A stretch of 14,823 bases of DNA, from assembly GCA_024636405.1 (NCBI GenBank), contig JAGXHC010000050.1:1-14823 (forward strand). Direction: 5' to 3'. Shown here piece after piece: positions 4,005-14,648 of this stretch. The notes below the pieces were generated by a model. It saw nothing but the letters and a program-made list of their open reading frames with translations. It did not search any database and was not told the origin of the DNA. Made by a program: the position numbers and the translations under genes. The stretch comes from Sulfitobacter sp. GTDB lineage: Bacteria; Pseudomonadota; Alphaproteobacteria; Rhodobacterales; Rhodobacteraceae. The number at the start of each line of letters is the position of its first letter. Positions within the stretch are counted from its first letter, which is position 1.

Positions 4005-5951
4005 ATGGCCCGGATCTCACTCACCCTTCCCGATGGCAATGTGCGCGACTACGCTGCAGGTATCACCGCCGGTGAAGTCGCTGCCGACATTTCCAAATCG
4101 CTGGCCAAGAAAGCGATCAGCGCAACCGTGAACGGGGTGCATTTCGATCTGGCATGGCCGATCGACAAAAACGCCGACATCGCGATCCATACCATGGCAG
4201 ATGAAGACCAGGCCAATGAATTGGTGCGTCACGATCTGGCCCACATCATGGCCCGCGCCGTTCAGGAACTTTGGCCCTATACCCGCGTCACCATCGGTCC
4301 GGTGATCAAGGATGGATGGTATTACGATTTTGATCGGGCAGAGCCGTTCACCCCCGAAGACCTTGGCACCATTGAAAAGAAGATGAAGGACATTATCAAC
4401 GCCCGCGATGTCGTCCGTACCGAAGTCTGGGACCGCGCGCGCGCGATCAAGCATTACGAAGACAACGGCGAGCCTTACAAGGTTGAGCTGATTGACGCGA
4501 TTCCGGGCGACGAGCCGCTGCGCATGTACTGGCACGGCGACTGGCAGGACCTGTGCCGTGGCCCGCACTTGCAGCATACCGGTCAGGTGCCGGGCGATGC
4601 GTTCAAACTTATGTCAATCGCCGGTGCATATTGGCGCGGCGACAGCAACCGCGCCATGTTGCAACGCATCTACGGCGTCGCCTTTACCGGCAAGGAAAAG
4701 CTGCGCGCGCATCTCAACATGCTGGAAGAAGCCGCCAAGCGCGACCACCGCAAACTGGGCCGCGAAATGAACCTGTTTCACATGCAGGAAGAAGCGCCCG
4801 GTCAAGTCTTCTGGCACCCAAATGGCTGGACCATCTACACCACCCTGCAAGACTATATGCGCCGCAAGCAGCGCGCGGGCGGCTATGTTGAGGTGAACAC
4901 CCCGCAGGTCGTTGACCGCAAGCTTTGGGAAAAATCAGGCCATTGGGACAATTATCAAGAGCACATGTTCATCGTCGAAGTCGATGAGGAACACGCCCGT
5001 GAAAAGGCGATTAACGCGCTCAAACCGATGAACTGCCCGTGCCACGTGCAGATTTTCAATCAGGGTCTGAAATCCTATCGCGATCTGCCGTTGCGCATGG
5101 CGGAATTCGGGTCGTGCAACCGGTATGAACCGTCAGGCGCGCTGCACGGCATTATGCGGGTGCGTGGGTTTACCCAGGACGACGCGCATATTTTCTGCCG
5201 CGAGGACCAGATTGAGGAAGAGTGCGCGAAGTTCATCGAATTCCTGTCGTCGGTCTACAAGGACCTTGGCTTTGAAGACTTTGAGATCATGTTTGCCACT
5301 CGCCCTGAAAAACGGGTCGGCACTGAAGAAAGCTGGGACAAGATGGAAGCCGCCCTTGAGGCCGCGATCCGAAAGACCGGGCATGATTTCACCCTCGATC
5401 CGGGCGAAGGCGCGTTCTATGCGCCCAAGCTTGACTTTAAACTGACCGATGCCATCGGTCGTGTGTGGCAGTGCGGCACCTTCCAAGTTGATCCCAATCT
5501 ACCCGAACGGCTGGATGCAACGTATATTGCCGAAGACGGCGCCAAGCATCGCCCCTATATGCTGCACCGCGCCTGTCTGGGTTCTTTTGAGCGTTTTATC
5601 GGCATCCTGATCGAAAACTGGGCAGGCAAGCTGCCGTTTTGGCTTGCTCCGCGGCAGGTGGTCGTTGCCTCCATCACGTCGGATGCCGATGATTATGTAC
5701 GCGATGTTGTGGCCGCGCTGATCGCTGCGGGCGTGCGCGCCGAAGCGGATGTGCGCAATGAAAAGATCAACTACAAGGTCCGCGAGCATTCGGTGGGCAA
5801 AGTGCCCGTGATCCTGGCCGTCGGCGCGCGCGAAGTTGAAGATCGCAGCGTATCTGTGCGCCGTCTTGGGGAAAAACAGACGTCGGTTCATTCGCTTGAC
5901 GATCTTGTTGCCGCACTGAAAGTTGAGGCAACCCCGCCCGATCTGCAGTAA
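4005..5951 (+). CDS. thrS: Threonyl-tRNA synthetase
   Basis: A 648-residue class II aminoacyl-tRNA synthetase that charges tRNA-Thr in the cytoplasm. Domains in order are an N-terminal TGS domain (about 1-62), the editing domain with H76xxxH80 and C184xxxH188 that clears Ser-tRNA-Thr, the catalytic core (about 245-540) and the anticodon-binding domain (about 550-648). The active-site zinc ligands are visible as Cys344 in MNCPCH, His395 in DDAHIF and His521 in [13 protein letters not shown] (motif 3). Motif 2 is [18 protein letters not shown]. Length is normal for the full bacterial form. The start ATG has GAGGAG at 3992-3997. The gene stands alone in its orientation between the divergent MFS gene and the bufferin operon, with a strong hairpin after the stop. 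Confidence 0.99.
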
Positions 5952-6003: not shown

Positions 6004-6191
6004 TGGCCAATTGTAACAAAAATTCGCGAAACCACCCCGCAATTGGCGAAATGTTGCTGAATGACCCACCCTTCCTGACACGATTGTGACACACATGCTC
6101 GTGAATGGTGTTTGACTGCGGTGGATGGTGTAATGATGGGGTATCGACGTCTTTCTACTCCACTGACCTTATCCATCGAAAGGACAACAAC

Positions 6192-6494
6192 ATGTCAAAT
6201 TCAATAAAAACAGCCGCAATTGCAGGTGCCATCGCCGCAGCAATGTCGGCCCACCCCACCGGAGCGGAAGCTGCGTCCAAAGAAAAATGCTTTGGTGTGG
6301 CACTGGCCGGTCAGAATGATTGCGCCGCCGGCCCTGGCACCACTTGTGCGGGTACGTCCGTGACTGATTACCAAGGCAACGCATGGACACTTGTGGATGC
6401 AGGGACATGCGCAGAAATCGACCTGCCAGAGATGGCAGATGGCACGCCCCGCGAAGGATCGCTCGAAGCGGTTGGCCGTGATTTGCCTGCCTGA
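6192..6494 (+). CDS. bufA1: Bufferin precursor peptide (DUF2282, BufA1 family)
   Basis: A 100-residue secreted precursor. Residues 1-27 form a signal peptide (Lys6, a hydrophobic Ala/Ile-rich core, cleavage around GAEA). The mature part shows the DUF2282 hallmark [17 protein letters not shown] followed by [16 protein letters not shown], with four Cys at 33, 44, 52 and 73. In characterised bufferins the core Cys are converted by BufB/BufC to copper-binding heterocycles and the peptide is exported to chelate excess metal; that function is inferred here from family and context. An acidic C-terminal tail follows Cys73. Start ATG 6192 has AAAGGA upstream. An in-frame ATG at 6105 would put 29 residues before the signal peptide and is rejected. 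First gene of the buf operon, followed by a hairpin and then bufB. Confidence 0.95.
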
Positions 6495-6501
6495 TATTGT
6501 C

Positions 6502-6536
6502 GGTGGCGCTGGCGGTATCGTTCCGCCTGCGCCGCC
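6502..6536 (+). promoter_or_regulatory. Intergenic hairpin between bufA1 and bufB (attenuator or RNA stabiliser)
   Basis: GGTGGCGCTGGCGG (6502-6515) pairs with CCGCCTGCGCCGCC (6523-6536): 14 positions with one T-T mismatch and one T-G pair, and a 7-base loop. It begins seven bases after the bufA1 stop and has no T-run after it. It would favour partial termination, or protect the bufA1 message, giving more precursor than enzyme. No other feature lies in this 75-base gap apart from the bufB ribosome binding site. Confidence 0.65.
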
Positions 6537-6569
6537 TCCAGCCACAAACCGATGACCGGAGGGCGCGTT

Positions 6570-7415
6570 ATGCCTAAAATCGGCCAGCGCCCAAACACCT
6601 TGCCAAACGCCCCCGGCGTTGGCTATAAGCCCCAACATTTCAATGACTTGCGAAACGATCCCGGCGACGTCGAGTGGATCGAAATTCACGCCGAAAATTA
6701 CATGGGTGATGGCGGGCGTCCGCATGCGCAGCTTCGAGCTTTGGCTGAACGGTTTGCCGTTTCGGTACATGGCGTTGGCCTGTCAATCGGGGGCGAGGAC
6801 CCGTTGGACCGCGACCATCTGGCGCGTCTGAAAAAGCTTTGCGATTGGTCACAACCTGCCAGTTTCTCCGAACATCTGGCTTGGTCCAGTCACGGGACCA
6901 ACTTCTATAACGACCTGCTCCCCCTGCCCTATACCGAAGCAACGCTTGATCGTGTTGCGACGCACATCAACCAGGTTCAGGATGCGGTCGGGCGCCAAAT
7001 GCTGCTCGAGAATCCGTCAAGCTATCTTGTTTTCGATGTTTCCAACTTGTCTGAAACTGACTTTCTTACCGAGGTTGTTGCCCGAACCTCCTGCGGTCTC
7101 TTGCTGGATATCAACAACGTCTTTATTTCCTCCACAAACCTTGGCCAAAGCCCGCAATCGTATATTGATGCATTTCCGACAGGACACATCGAAGAGCTTC
7201 ACGTCGGCGGCCATGACACCGACAGTGATGAAAACGGCGCGCCGTTGCTGATCGACAGCCACGGTGTTCCTGTTGCGGAACCTGTCTGGGCATTGCTGGA
7301 ATACACACTGGCGCAAACAGGTCGCAAACCTGTGTTGGTCGAATGGGACAATGACGTACCTGACTGGCCCACCCTACGCGCAGAAGCCGGTCGCGCAGCG
7401 CAGGCGTTGACATGA
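6570..7415 (+). CDS. bufB: Bufferin maturation enzyme BufB (DUF692, MNIO family)
   Basis: A 281-residue TIM-barrel protein of the multinuclear non-haem iron oxidase (MNIO/DUF692) family, related to MbnB of methanobactin synthesis. It opens with GVGYKPQHF (16-24). Candidate iron ligands by analogy with MbnB are His67 (VSVHGVG), His102 (EHLAW), Glu147 (LLENPSSYL), Asp180 (LDINNVF), His211 (ELHVGGH), Asp229 and His231 (DSHG) and Glu258 (VEWD); all are present. The predicted role is oxidative modification of BufA1 cysteines in the cytoplasm before export. An ATG at 6552 is possible, but ATG 6570 has GGAGGG six bases upstream. It overlaps bufC by ATGA (7412-7415), indicating translational coupling. 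Confidence 0.96.
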   Translation: MPKIGQRPNTLPNAPGVGYKPQHFNDLRNDPGDVEWIEIHAENYMGDGGRPHAQLRALAERFAVSVHGVGLSIGGEDPLDRDHLARLKKLCDWSQPASFSEHLAWSSHGTNFYNDLLPLPYTEATLDRVATHINQVQDAVGRQMLLENPSSYLVFDVSNLSETDFLTEVVARTSCGLLLDINNVFISSTNLGQSPQSYIDAFPTGHIEELHVGGHDTDSDENGAPLLIDSHGVPVAEPVWALLEYTLAQTGRKPVLVEWDNDVPDWPTLRAEAGRAAQALT

Positions 7416-8170
7416 TCACACAAAAGGATTTCAGCGATGCTCTGCTGAATCCAAAAATGCCCATGCCTCGAGATCTTAGCGATGGTAAATCAAACCCTGC
7501 CGGGCGCCGCTTTTCAGTTTACCGCAATAATGTGACGGTTTCCTTGATCGATGCGCTTCAGGTTGCTTTTCCGCTGATACGCAAACTGATTGGCGCAAAA
7601 AGTTTTAACGACCTCGCCCCGATTTTCGTAAGGGCGCATCCGCCTCGGTCGCCGCTAATGATGCAATATGGCGTTGATTTTCCAGCTTTTATCGAAAGCT
7701 TTCAACCTCTTGCCCATATTTCCTATTTGGGGGATGCAGCACGACTGGATCTGGCTTTGCGTGCTTCGTACCATAGCGCAGATGCACCAGTGCTTACGGC
7801 TGAGGCATTGCAACAAATGGAAATGGCAGAGTTGATGGATGCCACCCTGACGCTTGCACCATCAACGCGAATTCTGCGATCACGCTGGCCGCTTTATGAT
7901 ATTTGGCGATACAATCAGTCACAGGATGTCCCAAAACCCAGGCCCGTCGCCCAAGACGTCCTGATCACCCGCCCGGAATTCGATCCACAACTCCACCTGC
8001 TGCCCATGGGCGCAGCGCTCTGGCTTGAAAGCTTTACGAAAGGTGCAAAGTTTTCGGACGCGCACGCCCGAACCATCACGGCATCAGCCGATTTTGATTT
8101 GTCCGTTGCGCTGACACAGGCACTCACAACCGCCGCCTTCTCAGAAATTAACAGTAAGGCACTGAAATGA
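7412..8170 (+). CDS. bufC: BufC, DUF2063 partner protein of BufB
   Basis: A 252-residue protein with the DUF2063 N-terminal domain (about 5-100). Family-typical blocks are RRFSVYRNNV (32-41), FPLIRKLIGAKSFNDLAPIF (53-72), HPPRSPLMMQYGVDFPAFI and LGDAARLDLALRASYHS. A C-terminal domain contains SRWPLYDIWRYN. The family was once labelled DNA-binding, but its steady pairing with DUF692 enzymes and the MbnB-MbnC precedent indicate a role in binding the precursor and supporting modification. Both ends overlap neighbours by ATGA (7412-7415 with bufB, 8167-8170 with bufD), so the three genes are made together. Base composition is somewhat more AT-rich than in the flanking genes. Confidence 0.94.
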   Translation: MITQKDFSDALLNPKMPMPRDLSDGKSNPAGRRFSVYRNNVTVSLIDALQVAFPLIRKLIGAKSFNDLAPIFVRAHPPRSPLMMQYGVDFPAFIESFQPLAHISYLGDAARLDLALRASYHSADAPVLTAEALQQMEMAELMDATLTLAPSTRILRSRWPLYDIWRYNQSQDVPKPRPVAQDVLITRPEFDPQLHLLPMGAALWLESFTKGAKFSDAHARTITASADFDLSVALTQALTTAAFSEINSKALK

Positions 8171-8709
8171 AAGAAATTCTAGATACCTATCGCGCGTTTT
8201 CGACACGGCTAGAACGCGGCACCTGGCTGATCCCGACTTTTGCGCGGCTCGTATTCGCTGGGGTCCTTTTGGTCTACTACCTGAATTCTGGCATGACAAA
8301 ACTGGGTGGCGGCCTTTTCGGGATCCTGACGCCCTCTGCCGGTGGATATGCCCAGATTTTTCCACGCGCGATGGAAAATGTCGGGTATGACACCGACGCG
8401 CTTTCGCTCTTCCATCAATTGGTTGTCGTTAGCGGAACGCTGGCAGAATTCATATTGCCCACCCTAATCGTATTGGGGCTTTTTACCCGGCTTGCAGCAC
8501 TTGGGATGATCGGATTTGTCACCTTGCAATCGCTGACGGATGTTTACGGCCACGGACAGTCGACCGAAGTGGGGGCCTGGTTTGACAGGTTTGCTGATGC
8601 CGCTATCCTCGATCAGCGGGCATTCTGGATGTTTTTGCTGATCGTGCTTGTGATCAAGGGGGCTGGTCCGCTGTCCTTTGACCGCGCGCTCAAGCCAGCG
8701 GCCGTGTGA
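8167..8709 (+). CDS. bufD: BufD, DoxX-family integral membrane protein
   Basis: A 180-residue membrane protein with four likely transmembrane helices: FARLVFAGVLLVYYLNSG (about 19-36), a pair within LVVVSGTLAEFILPTLIVLGL and AALGMIGFVTLQSL (about 83-120), and FWMFLLIVLVIKGAGPLSF (about 156-174). GAGPLSFDRAL near the end is the DoxX signature. DoxX members often accompany DUF692-DUF2063 pairs in bufferin operons; their exact role (membrane redox step or peptide handling) is not settled. It overlaps bufC by ATGA. Its stop TGA (8707-8709) directly abuts the stop of the convergent ArsC-like gene. Confidence 0.93.
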   Translation: MKEILDTYRAFSTRLERGTWLIPTFARLVFAGVLLVYYLNSGMTKLGGGLFGILTPSAGGYAQIFPRAMENVGYDTDALSLFHQLVVVSGTLAEFILPTLIVLGLFTRLAALGMIGFVTLQSLTDVYGHGQSTEVGAWFDRFADAAILDQRAFWMFLLIVLVIKGAGPLSFDRALKPAAV

Positions 8710-9039
8710 TCATCGGCTCTGGTGTATCGAATTAACTTCGCTCTCTATCTCATTGTTCCAGCCTAAAAACATCACGTTATCCACGACGATCAGCGGCCGC
8801 TTCATCAGCGCGGGATGGCTCAAGATGAGGTCCTTGGACGGGCGCGCTTTGGCTTCTGCTGAGAGCCCTCTCCACGTTGTTGAGCGGGTATTGATCAAGG
8901 CATCTCCGAACTGCGCAAGTGCGCGGTCCAAGACGTCTTCCGGCACCGCATGGGTGCGTACATCGGACAGACGCGCCTCAGGCATCGCCCTGAGCGCCTT
9001 GCGGCACGTATCACAGTTTTTCAATCCGTACAAAATCAT
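8710..9039 (-). CDS. ArsC/Spx-family reductase-like protein (YffB type)
   Basis: A 109-residue thioredoxin-fold protein of the ArsC/Spx superfamily. It starts MILYGLKNCDTCRKAL, with a CxxC (Cys9, Cys12) on the first strand-helix junction. PALMKRPLIVVDNVMFLGW near residues 78-96 is the family's typical C-terminal block (K-R-P-[IL] motif). It matches the short YffB-like branch better than true arsenate reductases, so glutathione-linked or unknown thiol redox chemistry is more likely than arsenate reduction. GGAG lies five bases before the ATG. It is divergent from the cold-shock gene and convergent with bufD with no bases between. Confidence 0.9.
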   Translation of the reverse strand: MILYGLKNCDTCRKALRAMPEARLSDVRTHAVPEDVLDRALAQFGDALINTRSTTWRGLSAEAKARPSKDLILSHPALMKRPLIVVDNVMFLGWNNEIESEVNSIHQSR

Positions 9040-9490: not shown

Positions 9491-9808
9491 TCAATCATAG
9501 CTGCAACCCTTTGTTCCGACCGGACAATGCGCGCGGGCGCTGCGCACTTTTGTATGGCTTACCTTTTTGACATGGCGTGCCAATTTGTGGCGCTGTACCG
9601 GGTGCGCCTTGACTTGTTCGTAGGTCATGGATTGGTTCGGTACTCCGCAACAGATGACCCCGGAGATTGTGATCGGCTGAAGCCCTGCGGGGCAGTAATT
9701 TGCGCTGGACGGATAGGGATAGATCTTGGCATCTGCCGCGACTTGCGCAGGCACCAAAGTCGCGGTCATAAGGCCCAGACCGGCCATGAATGATGTTGTT
9801 AAACGCAT
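9491..9808 (-). CDS. Small secreted Cys/His-rich protein of unknown function
   Basis: A 105-residue protein with a clear signal peptide (Arg2, hydrophobic 7-20, cleavage near AQVAA-DAK, residue 25). The mature part holds five Cys (39, 53, 54, 95, 102), including an adjacent pair in VICCGVPNQS. A basic stretch (69-94) contains five His among many Lys/Arg (HPVQRHKLARHVKKVSH). It ends CPVGTKGCSYD. The pattern suggests a periplasmic, disulfide-bonded or metal-binding protein; no family is recognised. ATG 9808 is chosen over an upstream Met at 9850 because GAGGG lies six bases before it and the signal peptide starts there. It is 90 bases downstream of the P450 gene in the same direction and ends before the shared terminator. 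Confidence 0.8.
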   Translation of the reverse strand: MRLTTSFMAGLGLMTATLVPAQVAADAKIYPYPSSANYCPAGLQPITISGVICCGVPNQSMTYEQVKAHPVQRHKLARHVKKVSHTKVRSARAHCPVGTKGCSYD

Positions 9809-9898
9809 GATATCCCTCGTTTTGTTCAATTTCTCAGCAATATATGCCACAACCTTGCCCAGCAGACACGGCCCTGTCCAGATATTTCTGCCAACGGG

Positions 9899-12429: not shown

Positions 12430-13311
12430 GTGACACGTCAAATAATGGGCCTTGCGCTGGTCATCGGTCTTGCCGGGTGTGGTGGTACGCCGCCTTTCGG
12501 AGGTGGCGTCGGCAGCGGCGAAGGCGATGGAGACACCAGCGGCAACAGCGCCTTTCTGACTGAGGATAACCCCCGGTTGACCTTGAACAACATTGCGTAT
12601 GATCCGACGACGGACACGTTGACGTTGAACAATATCCCCTTTGACGATCCCCTGAACGCCTATGAGCGGATCCCGACAAATGACTTTAACAACGGGTTCA
12701 ACGCCTATCAGAGCGCGCCTGATCCGGGATCGAACCAGATCCAGTATTTTGCGGTGTTTCGGCGGTCAGACAGCGGGCTGACGCAGGTGGCATCGGCGGG
12801 CACAACGGCCTATGTTGATTTTGGCTACGGTGGCGCGGGCGCGCAGCGTCTGGGGGCGGCGCCGACGTTGCCCACCACGGGGATCTATTCTTATAACGGG
12901 GAATATGCCGGGGTGCGGACCACCAATGCGGCTGCCGGAAACAGTATCAACTACACAACCGGCTCTGCGTCGCTTGCTGTGGATTTCGATGATTTAGACA
13001 ATACCGGTGCGGTTGGTGGTCTGATCACAAATCGCCAGATTTACGGAACGGACGGCGCGCTTATTGGTGGTCTGGACGGGTTTATTTCGCTTCGGGATAC
13101 TGACATCGATTTCACCAATGGCACCATCGTGTCGTCCACGGCGACCGAATTCCAGCAGAACACAACGCGGTCGGGCACATGGCAGGGCGTTTTTGCCGGG
13201 CCGGGCGGGCGTGAGATTGCCGGCATCCTGTTTGTCGAAGGTGGCGATGTGCGCGAAGTGGGCGGAATGATTGTCACCTGTGTTGATACGCCCGGGGTGA
13301 CTTGTCCCTGA
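12430..13311 (+). CDS. TbpB-like lipoprotein, predicted Slam-dependent surface lipoprotein
   Basis: A 293-residue lipoprotein with lipobox LAGC (Cys17) followed by a Gly/Ser/Asp-rich linker (18-40), typical of lipoproteins that reach the cell surface. The middle part carries a twice-repeated LTLNNI (50-55, 64-69). The C-terminal half (about 145-282) has the look of the eight-strand barrel of transferrin-binding protein B: GIYSYNGEYAGVRT (151-164), GTWQGVFAGPGGREIAGILF (249-268) and a closing EVGGMIV. Two Cys near the end (284, 292) could pair. The ligand is unknown; the family includes binders of transferrin, haem and haem proteins. The start is GTG 12430, with GAGGG about nine bases upstream. 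The stop overlaps the start of the Slam-like gene (TGATG), so the pair is co-translated. Confidence 0.85.
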   Translation: MTRQIMGLALVIGLAGCGGTPPFGGGVGSGEGDGDTSGNSAFLTEDNPRLTLNNIAYDPTTDTLTLNNIPFDDPLNAYERIPTNDFNNGFNAYQSAPDPGSNQIQYFAVFRRSDSGLTQVASAGTTAYVDFGYGGAGAQRLGAAPTLPTTGIYSYNGEYAGVRTTNAAAGNSINYTTGSASLAVDFDDLDNTGAVGGLITNRQIYGTDGALIGGLDGFISLRDTDIDFTNGTIVSSTATEFQQNTTRSGTWQGVFAGPGGREIAGILFVEGGDVREVGGMIVTCVDTPGVTCP

Positions 13312-14648
13312 TGCGGCTTTGGCCGGGGTTGGTTGTTTGGCTGTGCTGCGCGGGGTTCGCGGCCGGCCAGACCACCCTGTCGCCCGACACGGCGCGCATT
13401 GCGGCGGCGCAATTGCTGAAACAGGGCCAGCCCCGCGCGTCTGCCGATATCACCACCGTTTTGGTCGCGCGGGATCCCAAGGACGCGACCAGCCTGATCC
13501 TGCAGGCCCATGCGTTGCGCATGTTGCAGCGCCACACCGCTGCGCAGGCGGCGGCGCGGCAGGCGTGGCAGGTAGCGACGCGCCCGGTGGAACGCTACGG
13601 TGCGGCGCTGGCGATGGCGCAGGCGTTGTCATCGGACGGGTCCAAGACGCGGGCGCAATTCTGGCTGCGCCGTGCGGCACATGTGGCCCCGGACGATCAA
13701 ACGCGCGCACGGGCCGCCCGCGATTACCAGTTTGTGCGCATGACCAACCCCTGGTCGTTCAATTTTGGCATCACCCTGGACCCCAGTGACAATGTCAACG
13801 GCGCGCCGACGGACAATACATTTGTGCTGGGCGGGCTGATTTTCACCAACCCCGCCGCGGTGCCGATTTCGGGCTTTGCGCTGCGCACCAATACCGCCCT
13901 GCGTTATGATTTCGGGATCAGCCAGACACAGCGGACCTTTGTGTCCGTGAACTGGACCGAAAGCCATACGGTGTTCACCGATAATGCGGTTCCTGCCGGG
14001 GTGGATGCCGCCGATTTTGCGTTTCGGCGGGTAGAAGCACAGATTGGACGGGATTTCACCACCGGGCCGGGCGCGCCGCGCCAGACTGTTTCGGTCAGTT
14101 ACGGACGGCTTTGGTCGGCGAATGACCCGCTGTCCGACGAGATCAAGCTGAATTGGCGCCAGACCTATGCGCGCCCTGAAAACCGCTTGTTTTCATGGCA
14201 TGCGGGGCTGGGATATTCCGACCGCAAGGACAGCGCCGTGCGCTCTGGTGTGACCGCAAGTCTGGGCGCGCAATGGGCGCGGCCGCTGGCAAATGGTGAT
14301 CGGCTGAGCTGGAACGCGGAGATCGGGCGCACCGATACCGACAGCCGCGCCATCACCCATAACGCGATGAGCCTTGGGGTGCAGTACAGCTTTTCGCAGC
14401 CGGTTTTGGGCGCGCAGGCACAGATTTCGCTGAGCGCGCAGGCCAAACGGTATGACGATGCGCTTTATGGTCCCGACGCCCGTGCCGACCTGGGTGCTAC
14501 ATTTTCGACCTCGCTTCTGTTCGTGGATTTTGACACTTACGGATTTGCCCCTAAGCTTACACTTGAAGCACGCAAGACAACATCGAACGTCAACCGCTTT
14601 GAGACACAGAATTTCGGGCTGAGCATGGGTTTCCAATCCGTGTTCTGA
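13311..14648 (+). CDS. Slam-like outer-membrane protein (TPR plus DUF560 beta-barrel)
   Basis: A 445-residue outer-membrane protein. After a signal peptide (about 1-19, ending FAAGQ) comes a helical TPR-like region (about 22-140, Ala/Arg-rich repeats such as DPKDATSLILQAHALRML). Next is a long run of amphipathic strands (about 145-445) ending FGLSMGFQSVF with a terminal Phe, the usual barrel-assembly signal. This architecture is that of surface lipoprotein assembly modifiers (Slam, DUF560), first defined in Neisseria, which move lipoproteins such as TbpB to the outer face. A TTG at 13302 is possible; ATG 13311, overlapping the upstream stop as TGATG, is preferred, with GGGGTGA eleven bases before. 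Its presumed client is the adjacent lipoprotein. No TonB-dependent receptor is seen nearby. Confidence 0.87.
   Translation: MRLWPGLVVWLCCAGFAAGQTTLSPDTARIAAAQLLKQGQPRASADITTVLVARDPKDATSLILQAHALRMLQRHTAAQAAARQAWQVATRPVERYGAALAMAQALSSDGSKTRAQFWLRRAAHVAPDDQTRARAARDYQFVRMTNPWSFNFGITLDPSDNVNGAPTDNTFVLGGLIFTNPAAVPISGFALRTNTALRYDFGISQTQRTFVSVNWTESHTVFTDNAVPAGVDAADFAFRRVEAQIGRDFTTGPGAPRQTVSVSYGRLWSANDPLSDEIKLNWRQTYARPENRLFSWHAGLGYSDRKDSAVRSGVTASLGAQWARPLANGDRLSWNAEIGRTDTDSRAITHNAMSLGVQYSFSQPVLGAQAQISLSAQAKRYDDALYGPDARADLGATFSTSLLFVDFDTYGFAPKLTLEARKTTSNVNRFETQNFGLSMGFQSVF

Follow-up and report, generated by a model that had tools for sequence, protein, structure and literature searches.

The closest described counterpart of the genes analysed here is the bufferin-1 operon of Caulobacter vibrioides (CC3254-CC3257, or CCNA_03363-03366; Buf1/DUF2282), and our subject is the bufA1-bufB-bufC-bufD operon of Sulfitobacter sp., with the conserved element upstream of it, on a contig of 14,823 nt (GCA_024636405.1, JAGXHC010000050.1; this whole stretch is hereafter called the window). 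In the published work used for comparison, the core of a bufferin cluster consists of precursor, MNIO, DUF2063 and DoxX genes, with DoxX not universal, and sigma-factor and NrsF genes are reported in Buf1 and not in Buf2 clusters (PMC12452194); the Caulobacter operon responds to SigF via a GTAACC-N16-CGAA promoter (PMC3511200), and SigF matters for copper tolerance in Caulobacter (PMC8224329). The window operon has the same order of DUF2282, DUF692/MNIO, DUF2063 and DoxX genes, and its precursor has the four cysteines stated to be a trait of the bufferin-1 family (PMC12452194). The two loci differ in their control regions, since Caulobacter has adjacent sigF-nrsF genes and the SigF promoter, whereas the window has no such promoter, but has tandem CenR-type boxes and thrS as a neighbour. 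The captophorins oxazolin, fontiphorin and gonophorin combine an MNIO with a DUF2063 partner and carry thiooxazoles (PMC13097082), a likeness that the window shares by its genes alone; they have Sec signal peptides (PMC12452194), and their precursors belong to a different family with EGKCG repeats, which are absent from the window precursor.

A conserved two-box element upstream of bufA

A conserved operator very probably exists upstream of bufA in the window and its relatives. The first comparison set consisted of 80 loci kept from at least 582 contig stretches encoding a BufB relative, nearly all from Sulfitobacter, Roseobacter and other Rhodobacteraceae-type bacteria (two are labelled only as 'Alphaproteobacteria bacterium'), with 67-81% identity. 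With the window included, the 81 upstream regions share the consensus TsAC-N6-GTGA-N-NCAC-N6-GTGA-N-TgG, and a two-box profile scored above 8 in 79 of them (the exceptions being L034 and L045), against a peak of 4.1 in shuffled regions (one shuffle each); this profile was refined on the same 81 sequences, and its in-sample scores measure consistency. A TAnnnT sequence starts 24 or 25 nt past the second box in 45 of the 79 aligned promoters, which places the element right beside the site where a -35 would be expected. A scan for consensus σ70 promoters gave no promoter at bufA, the -35 of the window being deduced from the positioned -10, and Rfam had no match within the window.

The single palindrome TCAC-N6-GTGA, with one mismatch allowed, was present within 170 nt of the bufA start in all 81 regions of the first set and in 29/30 loci of a family sample (L195-L224). 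This sample was taken as the 30 matches with the best E-values from 106 genomes; it has seven genomes already matched by the full element and partly overlaps the 80 loci (at least at L038), and is therefore not fully independent. The control rates for this palindrome were 4.9% in single-base shuffles, 2/74 upstream of thrS, 3/62 upstream of csp genes and 275/10000 in random windows. The full element, with at most one mismatch, was found once each in 30 of 149 genomes of the family and never with the reversed control pattern, and 28 of these 30 matches were located upstream of bufA (the other two being L109 and L119). Many of the 119 unmatched genomes do have DUF2282, so the strict element is a marker for no more than a part of the family. 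When two mismatches were allowed in 10 genomes, ten sites away from bufA were found versus seven for the reversed control, and only the bufA site recurs. At L110 and L127 the full element precedes bufA without thrS in the flank examined.

A reading of the element as an extracytoplasmic function (ECF)-type promoter, with TGAC as -35 and TCGTGA as -10, was rejected, as it is countered by the TAnnnT positioned 24-25 nt downstream and by the coexistence of the box with a SigF pattern at other loci.

CenR as the candidate regulator

The boxes resemble the binding sites of the OmpR-family regulator CenR in both sequence and placement. In Sinorhizobium meliloti the CenR site AGTCAC-N6-GTGACT lies directly upstream of the -35, as shown by mutation, genetics and electrophoretic mobility shift assays, and the chvI promoter carries a CenR-type repeat (PMC9561847), while the sites of Rhodobacter sphaeroides have the form TGA-N8-TGA, with 28/31 directly upstream of the -35 and oriented with transcription (PMC9275681). 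The CenR-activated promoters of S. meliloti srlA and of R. sphaeroides RSP_2718, RSP_1199 and cenR have the same box sequence directly upstream of the -35, and this trait of the CenR regulon is present at the window bufA, where a CenR-type box directly precedes the putative -35; the bufA loci differ from these promoters in having two adjacent boxes in 79/81 cases.

A CenR matrix was built from only the 28 activated sites of Table 1 in PMC9275681 and applied to the 81 bufA regions of 200 nt each. The median best score was 13.0, against background levels of 9.2 (95%) and 11.5 (99%), with 72 regions exceeding the 95% level and 53 the 99% level. The best site was box 1 in 68 regions, box 2 in seven and elsewhere in four, with two regions lacking the element, and the score of box 1 of the window (15.9) was higher than that of all 8000 background windows. 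None of 200 column-permuted matrices equalled the real one on 40 of the 81 regions. ChvI was also considered as the binder and was rejected, since its Caulobacter motif TTGC-N3-GCAA (PMC9731502) does not match the bufA box.

Further evidence came from one known CenR target and from the cenR-like genes themselves. Of 28 related genomes, 14 have T[GC]AC-N6-GTGA (one mismatch allowed) in the 330 nt upstream of tolQ, a known CenR target, versus 13.8% of random windows, and three have the exact form versus 0.44%. A CenR-like regulator was found in both genomes examined (L181 and L188); the two proteins are 91% identical over 228 residues, and have a receiver and a winged-helix domain with D11-13, D51 and D56 at the published positions. 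A single base separates the sequence upstream of the L181 gene, ACACGAGGGCGTGAG, from the one at cenR in R. sphaeroides, ACACGAGCGCGTGAG.

Several observations weigh against CenR as the binder, or against the promoter assigned here. Half of the 28 tolQ regions lack a box at one mismatch, and the box occupies a common position (-142 to -155) in only six. The L188 gene has a different best upstream site, and among 25 regulator genes the top upstream score belongs to another gene, L187, ahead of L188 in second place and L181 in third. With the CenR matrix, the opposite strand of the bufA regions passes the background level about as often (76/81 above the 95% level, median 11.6), and because the box is near-palindromic, neither its orientation nor its reading as a direct repeat is fixed. 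The mean score of box 2 by itself is 7.7 with this matrix, compared with 11.2 at the published sites. The -10 of the window (TAATGA) is imperfect and displaced by 1-2 nt, and the relatives are non-independent samples. Finally, bufferin genes are missing from the published CenR table of R. sphaeroides, DUF2282, DUF692, DoxX and copper do not appear in that article (PMC9275681), and the CenR literature consulted gives no link to copper. The R. sphaeroides article also states that the signal of CenKR is unknown (PMC9275681).

These points bear on the alternative that the boxes of the bufferin-1 operon bind not CenR but a regulator whose half-site is similar, either a different OmpR-family member or a dedicated metal-responsive protein. 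A full element that occurs a single time in a genome, and nearly always at bufA, is what a dedicated regulator would lead one to expect. The boxless tolQ regions and the top-scoring site of the response regulator gene L187 also speak for another regulator. Against it, the box equals the experimentally defined CenR palindrome of S. meliloti (PMC9561847) and matches R. sphaeroides sites supported by chromatin immunoprecipitation, such as TCACCTCCTCGTGAG (PMC9275681), and it is retained at bufA loci that lack thrS. We regard another regulator as rather unlikely, and propose from the sequence matches that CenR probably binds the bufA boxes. No paper combining CenR or CenKR with bufferins, DUF2282 or MNIO enzymes was found in our searches of an open-access library, nor did these searches show a description of this bufA promoter architecture; it appears to be a variant.

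Lack of SigF-NrsF features and proposed replacement of this control

The sequence-only reading of the window had remarked that neither a sigma/anti-sigma pair nor a known copper regulator adjoins the operon, and that its control may therefore differ. Both remarks agree with our results: no such pair or copper regulator was present among the 17 open reading frames (ORFs) of the window scanned against Pfam (the scan did not extend to smaller or overlapping ORFs), and the relatives show a different conserved operator, with NrsF absent from 10/10 related genomes and no GTAAC-N15-18-CGAA in any of the 81 bufA upstream regions of 200 nt.

NrsF does occur in the wider family, in 22 of the 149 genomes (21 above the cut-off), and lies within approximately 3 kb of a DUF2282 gene in 12 of the 22. 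From a set of 20 NrsF loci, we analysed the 10 with bufA (e.g. L226, L227 and L232), the other 10 having no bufA match. All 10 have GTAAC 75-111 nt before bufA, seven of them have CGAA at roughly the expected distance, and all 10 also have a TCAC-N6-GTGA box (at least 7/8) upstream of GTAAC, at a distance of 5-6 nt in nine loci and 15 nt in one; shuffled segments upstream of GTAAC reached a 7/8 match in only 73 of 10000 cases. These loci thus resemble the window in having bufA-bufB and a box upstream of the -35, but they keep the GTAAC -35 and the neighbouring nrsF gene, whereas the SigF pattern is lacking from all 81 loci of the first set, window included. The arrangement at L227 (genome G020; L227:1-3585) is thrS, nrsF, an ECF sigma gene and then bufA, with nrsF and the sigma gene on the minus strand and overlapping by ATGA, and nrsF ending 15 bases from thrS. 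The sigma pair of L227 therefore occupies the gap between thrS and bufA, a chromosomal site that the window shares but that is empty there. The only locus of the family sample without a box, L202 (genome G145), is thrS-linked and has GTAAC upstream of bufA, with NrsF on another contig, and is possibly an intermediate between the two control types.

Standard SigF-NrsF control could also act in trans, with its genes at another genomic location, in a Caulobacter-like manner. Such control is published for Caulobacter (PMC3511200), and the 22 NrsF-positive genomes and the arrangement at L202 are compatible with it; the lack of NrsF from the 10 related genomes (a count that does not include the source genome) and of a SigF-type promoter from all 81 upstream regions, the window among them, make it very improbable for this operon. 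Read most simply, the comparison suggests a box that predates both promoter types and a loss of the sigma pair, together with its promoter, in the thrS-linked lineage, the direction of this change being deduced. We lean towards a scenario in which the thrS-linked bufferin operon of Rhodobacteraceae exchanged SigF-NrsF for a housekeeping-type promoter and kept, and usually duplicated, an ancestral CenR operator, so that the copper sponge would have joined the CenKR envelope programme, with CenR also acting at the SigF-driven bufferin promoters of the family. The enrichment of the box at tolQ, its rarity in shuffles of the segments upstream of GTAAC and the arrangement at L227 together slightly raise the odds of this scenario.

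The operon, its neighbours and its proposed role

The four genes of the operon are intact (Table 1), and the coordinates and the Pfam matches agree with the order proposed in the sequence-only reading, with ATGA overlaps joining the last three genes, at both the bufB/bufC and bufC/bufD junctions. All four products scored above the curated Pfam cut-offs, BufA1 with DUF2282 (PF10048, E 4.7e-24), BufB with MbnB_TglH_ChrH (E 1.1e-100), BufC with DUF2063 (PF09836, E 1.7e-24) and BufD with DoxX (PF07681, E 2.3e-6). BufB also passed the NCBIfam equivalog MNIO_BufB (NF050167; 361.8 bits versus a cut-off of 310), while HvfC for BufC and HvfX for BufD matched below cut-off only, and no NCBIfam model matched BufA1. 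A protein search with BufA1 gave 7999 scored candidates, all with E ≤0.001, and among the 120 matches listed are some annotated as 'BufA1 family periplasmic bufferin-type metallophore'.

Table 1. Positions of the operon, its control region and its upstream neighbour in the window.
Feature	Coordinates	Strand	Description
thrS	4005..5951	+	conserved upstream neighbour, outside the system
Operator box 1	6076..6089	+	TGAC-N6-GTGA; first of the tandem pair, CenR-type
Operator box 2	6091..6104	+	ACAC-N6-GTGA; 7/8 of the palindrome TCAC-N6-GTGA, adjoins the -35 region
Putative promoter	6106..6136	+	weak -35 TGGTGT (6106-6111), -10 TAATGA (6131-6136)
bufA1	6192..6494	+	DUF2282 bufferin-1 precursor, 100 amino acids, Cys 33/44/52/73
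Hairpin	6502..6536	+	GC-rich, without U-tract, between bufA1 and bufB
bufB	6570..7415	+	MNIO maturase, 281 amino acids from ATG 6570
bufC	7412..8170	+	DUF2063 partner protein with second C-terminal domain
bufD	8167..8709	+	DoxX-family membrane protein

The longest bufB ORF begins at 6552, but with GGAGG at 6558-6562, seven bases before the ATG at 6570, the latter is the more likely start. This start leaves 75 nt between bufA1 and bufB, containing a stable hairpin; the 76 nt region folds at -35.5 kcal/mol (z-score -2.5 against single-base shuffles). Most of the 79 sequences surveyed in this way (window included, two of the 81 left out) have a stable fold after bufA, with a median z-score of -2.3, 44 below -2 and 64 below -1. 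The hairpin may plausibly act as a partial terminator or 3′ stabiliser, allowing the precursor to be made in excess of the enzyme. The 4-base overlap is conserved between bufB and bufC in 57 of 63 relatives, and between bufC and bufD in 23/63, as counted in those of the 80 relatives where a script placed all four ORFs (the remaining 17 being left out).

The four cysteines noted in the sequence-only reading of BufA1 are conserved, with four cysteines in every BufA1 compared (81/81), and the N-terminus looks signal-like by eye, with a mean hydropathy of ≤1.6 in every 19-residue window. That reading had also reported all candidate iron ligands of BufB to be present, and this was borne out upon alignment: H73, H108, E153, D186, H217, D235, H237 and E264 (in the numbering of a 287 amino acid protein) are invariant across 65 BufB sequences including that of the window, and are the same in 3BWW and, across the aligned part, in MbnB (7DZ9). 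From MbnB and TglH structures, we take these residues to be metal ligands. An AlphaFold model of BufC (predicted local distance difference test score of 93, from a 26-sequence alignment) matched the TglHI chain 8hi7_A (E 3.2e-6) and NGO1945 (3dee, E 1.3e-4) over 218-249 columns in Foldseek, and the modelled fold is as expected for a partner protein that combines DUF2063 with a putative domain of the RiPP recognition element (RRE) type, where RiPP denotes ribosomally synthesised and post-translationally modified peptides. Every sequence-level feature open to checking thus supports the bufferin-1 interpretation, and by these features the operon is confirmed as a bufferin-1 (captophorin) operon and a standard member of the published class. 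Its completeness is not novel, as precursor, MNIO, DUF2063 and DoxX already form the published core of the class (PMC12452194).

The gene content is conserved in the relatives, where tblastn detected bufA and bufB in 80/80 loci, bufC in 79 and bufD in 78, the sequence ending at the loci with a missing gene (L002 and L009). The thrS gene is present in 77/80 loci (in 75 at ≤1 kb upstream of bufA), and an ArsC/Spx-like gene in 70/80 (in 69 at ≤1.5 kb after bufD); in the window the ArsC/Spx-like protein is encoded at 8710-9039 on the minus strand, convergent with the operon, and a number of relatives have some 400 bp more between bufD and this gene. DUF2282 was present in 106 of the 149 family genomes, and two of these (G017, contig C18, and G110, contig C45) have a pair of DUF2282 genes near each other on the same contig, representing duplicated bufferin precursors. 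Elsewhere in the window, 9491-9850 (minus strand) encodes a small protein with five cysteines and a signal-like N-terminus but without Pfam or NCBIfam match, which is present beside or near a cold-shock gene in 18/80 relatives. At 12430-14648 (plus strand), a putative lipoprotein resembling a TbpB barrel (below the Pfam cut-off) is followed by a SlipAM/Slam-like outer-membrane protein, the two genes overlapping by 10 bases if the TTG start is correct; they look like a surface-lipoprotein export pair.

Taken together, the window likely contains a bufferin-1 operon for a periplasmic copper sponge, driven by a CenR-activated σ70-type promoter and not by SigF-NrsF. In this model, BufA1 would be made with a Sec-type signal peptide, after which the multi-iron oxidase BufB and its partner BufC would convert the central Cys 44 and Cys 52 into copper-binding thiooxazoles, and the outer Cys 33 and Cys 73 would be joined as a disulphide; the modified BufA1 would then act as a copper sponge in the periplasm, with BufD as an accessory membrane protein. 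The σ70-type promoter would be activated by CenR on the TCAC-N6-GTGA boxes beside the -35, and bufferin would thereby be switched on within the envelope-homeostasis programme. The chemistry, cysteine roles and copper function are carried over from the literature, and we infer by analogy that the chemistry holds in this species, just as we infer CenR activation and the loss of SigF control from comparison of upstream regions. The bufferin genes might instead serve in the response to another metal or to thiol or oxidative stress, as the survey published in 2025 treats further roles including gold-induced operons (PMC12452194), and in Caulobacter the SigF regulon responds to chromate and cadmium as well (PMC8224329). 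The precursor family, cysteine pattern and core genes all match the copper-protective bufferin-1 of Caulobacter, however, and we consider such a role improbable.

The biosynthetic operon itself extends by one member a large class of copper-handling peptides that was described only recently. A conserved operator that fits a known envelope regulator provides a concrete answer to the question of how control may work in bufferin operons that lack SigF-NrsF. If the proposed control is true, it would tie the CenKR system to a RiPP that serves as a copper sponge, and would represent a traceable replacement of a sigma factor inside one bacterial family.

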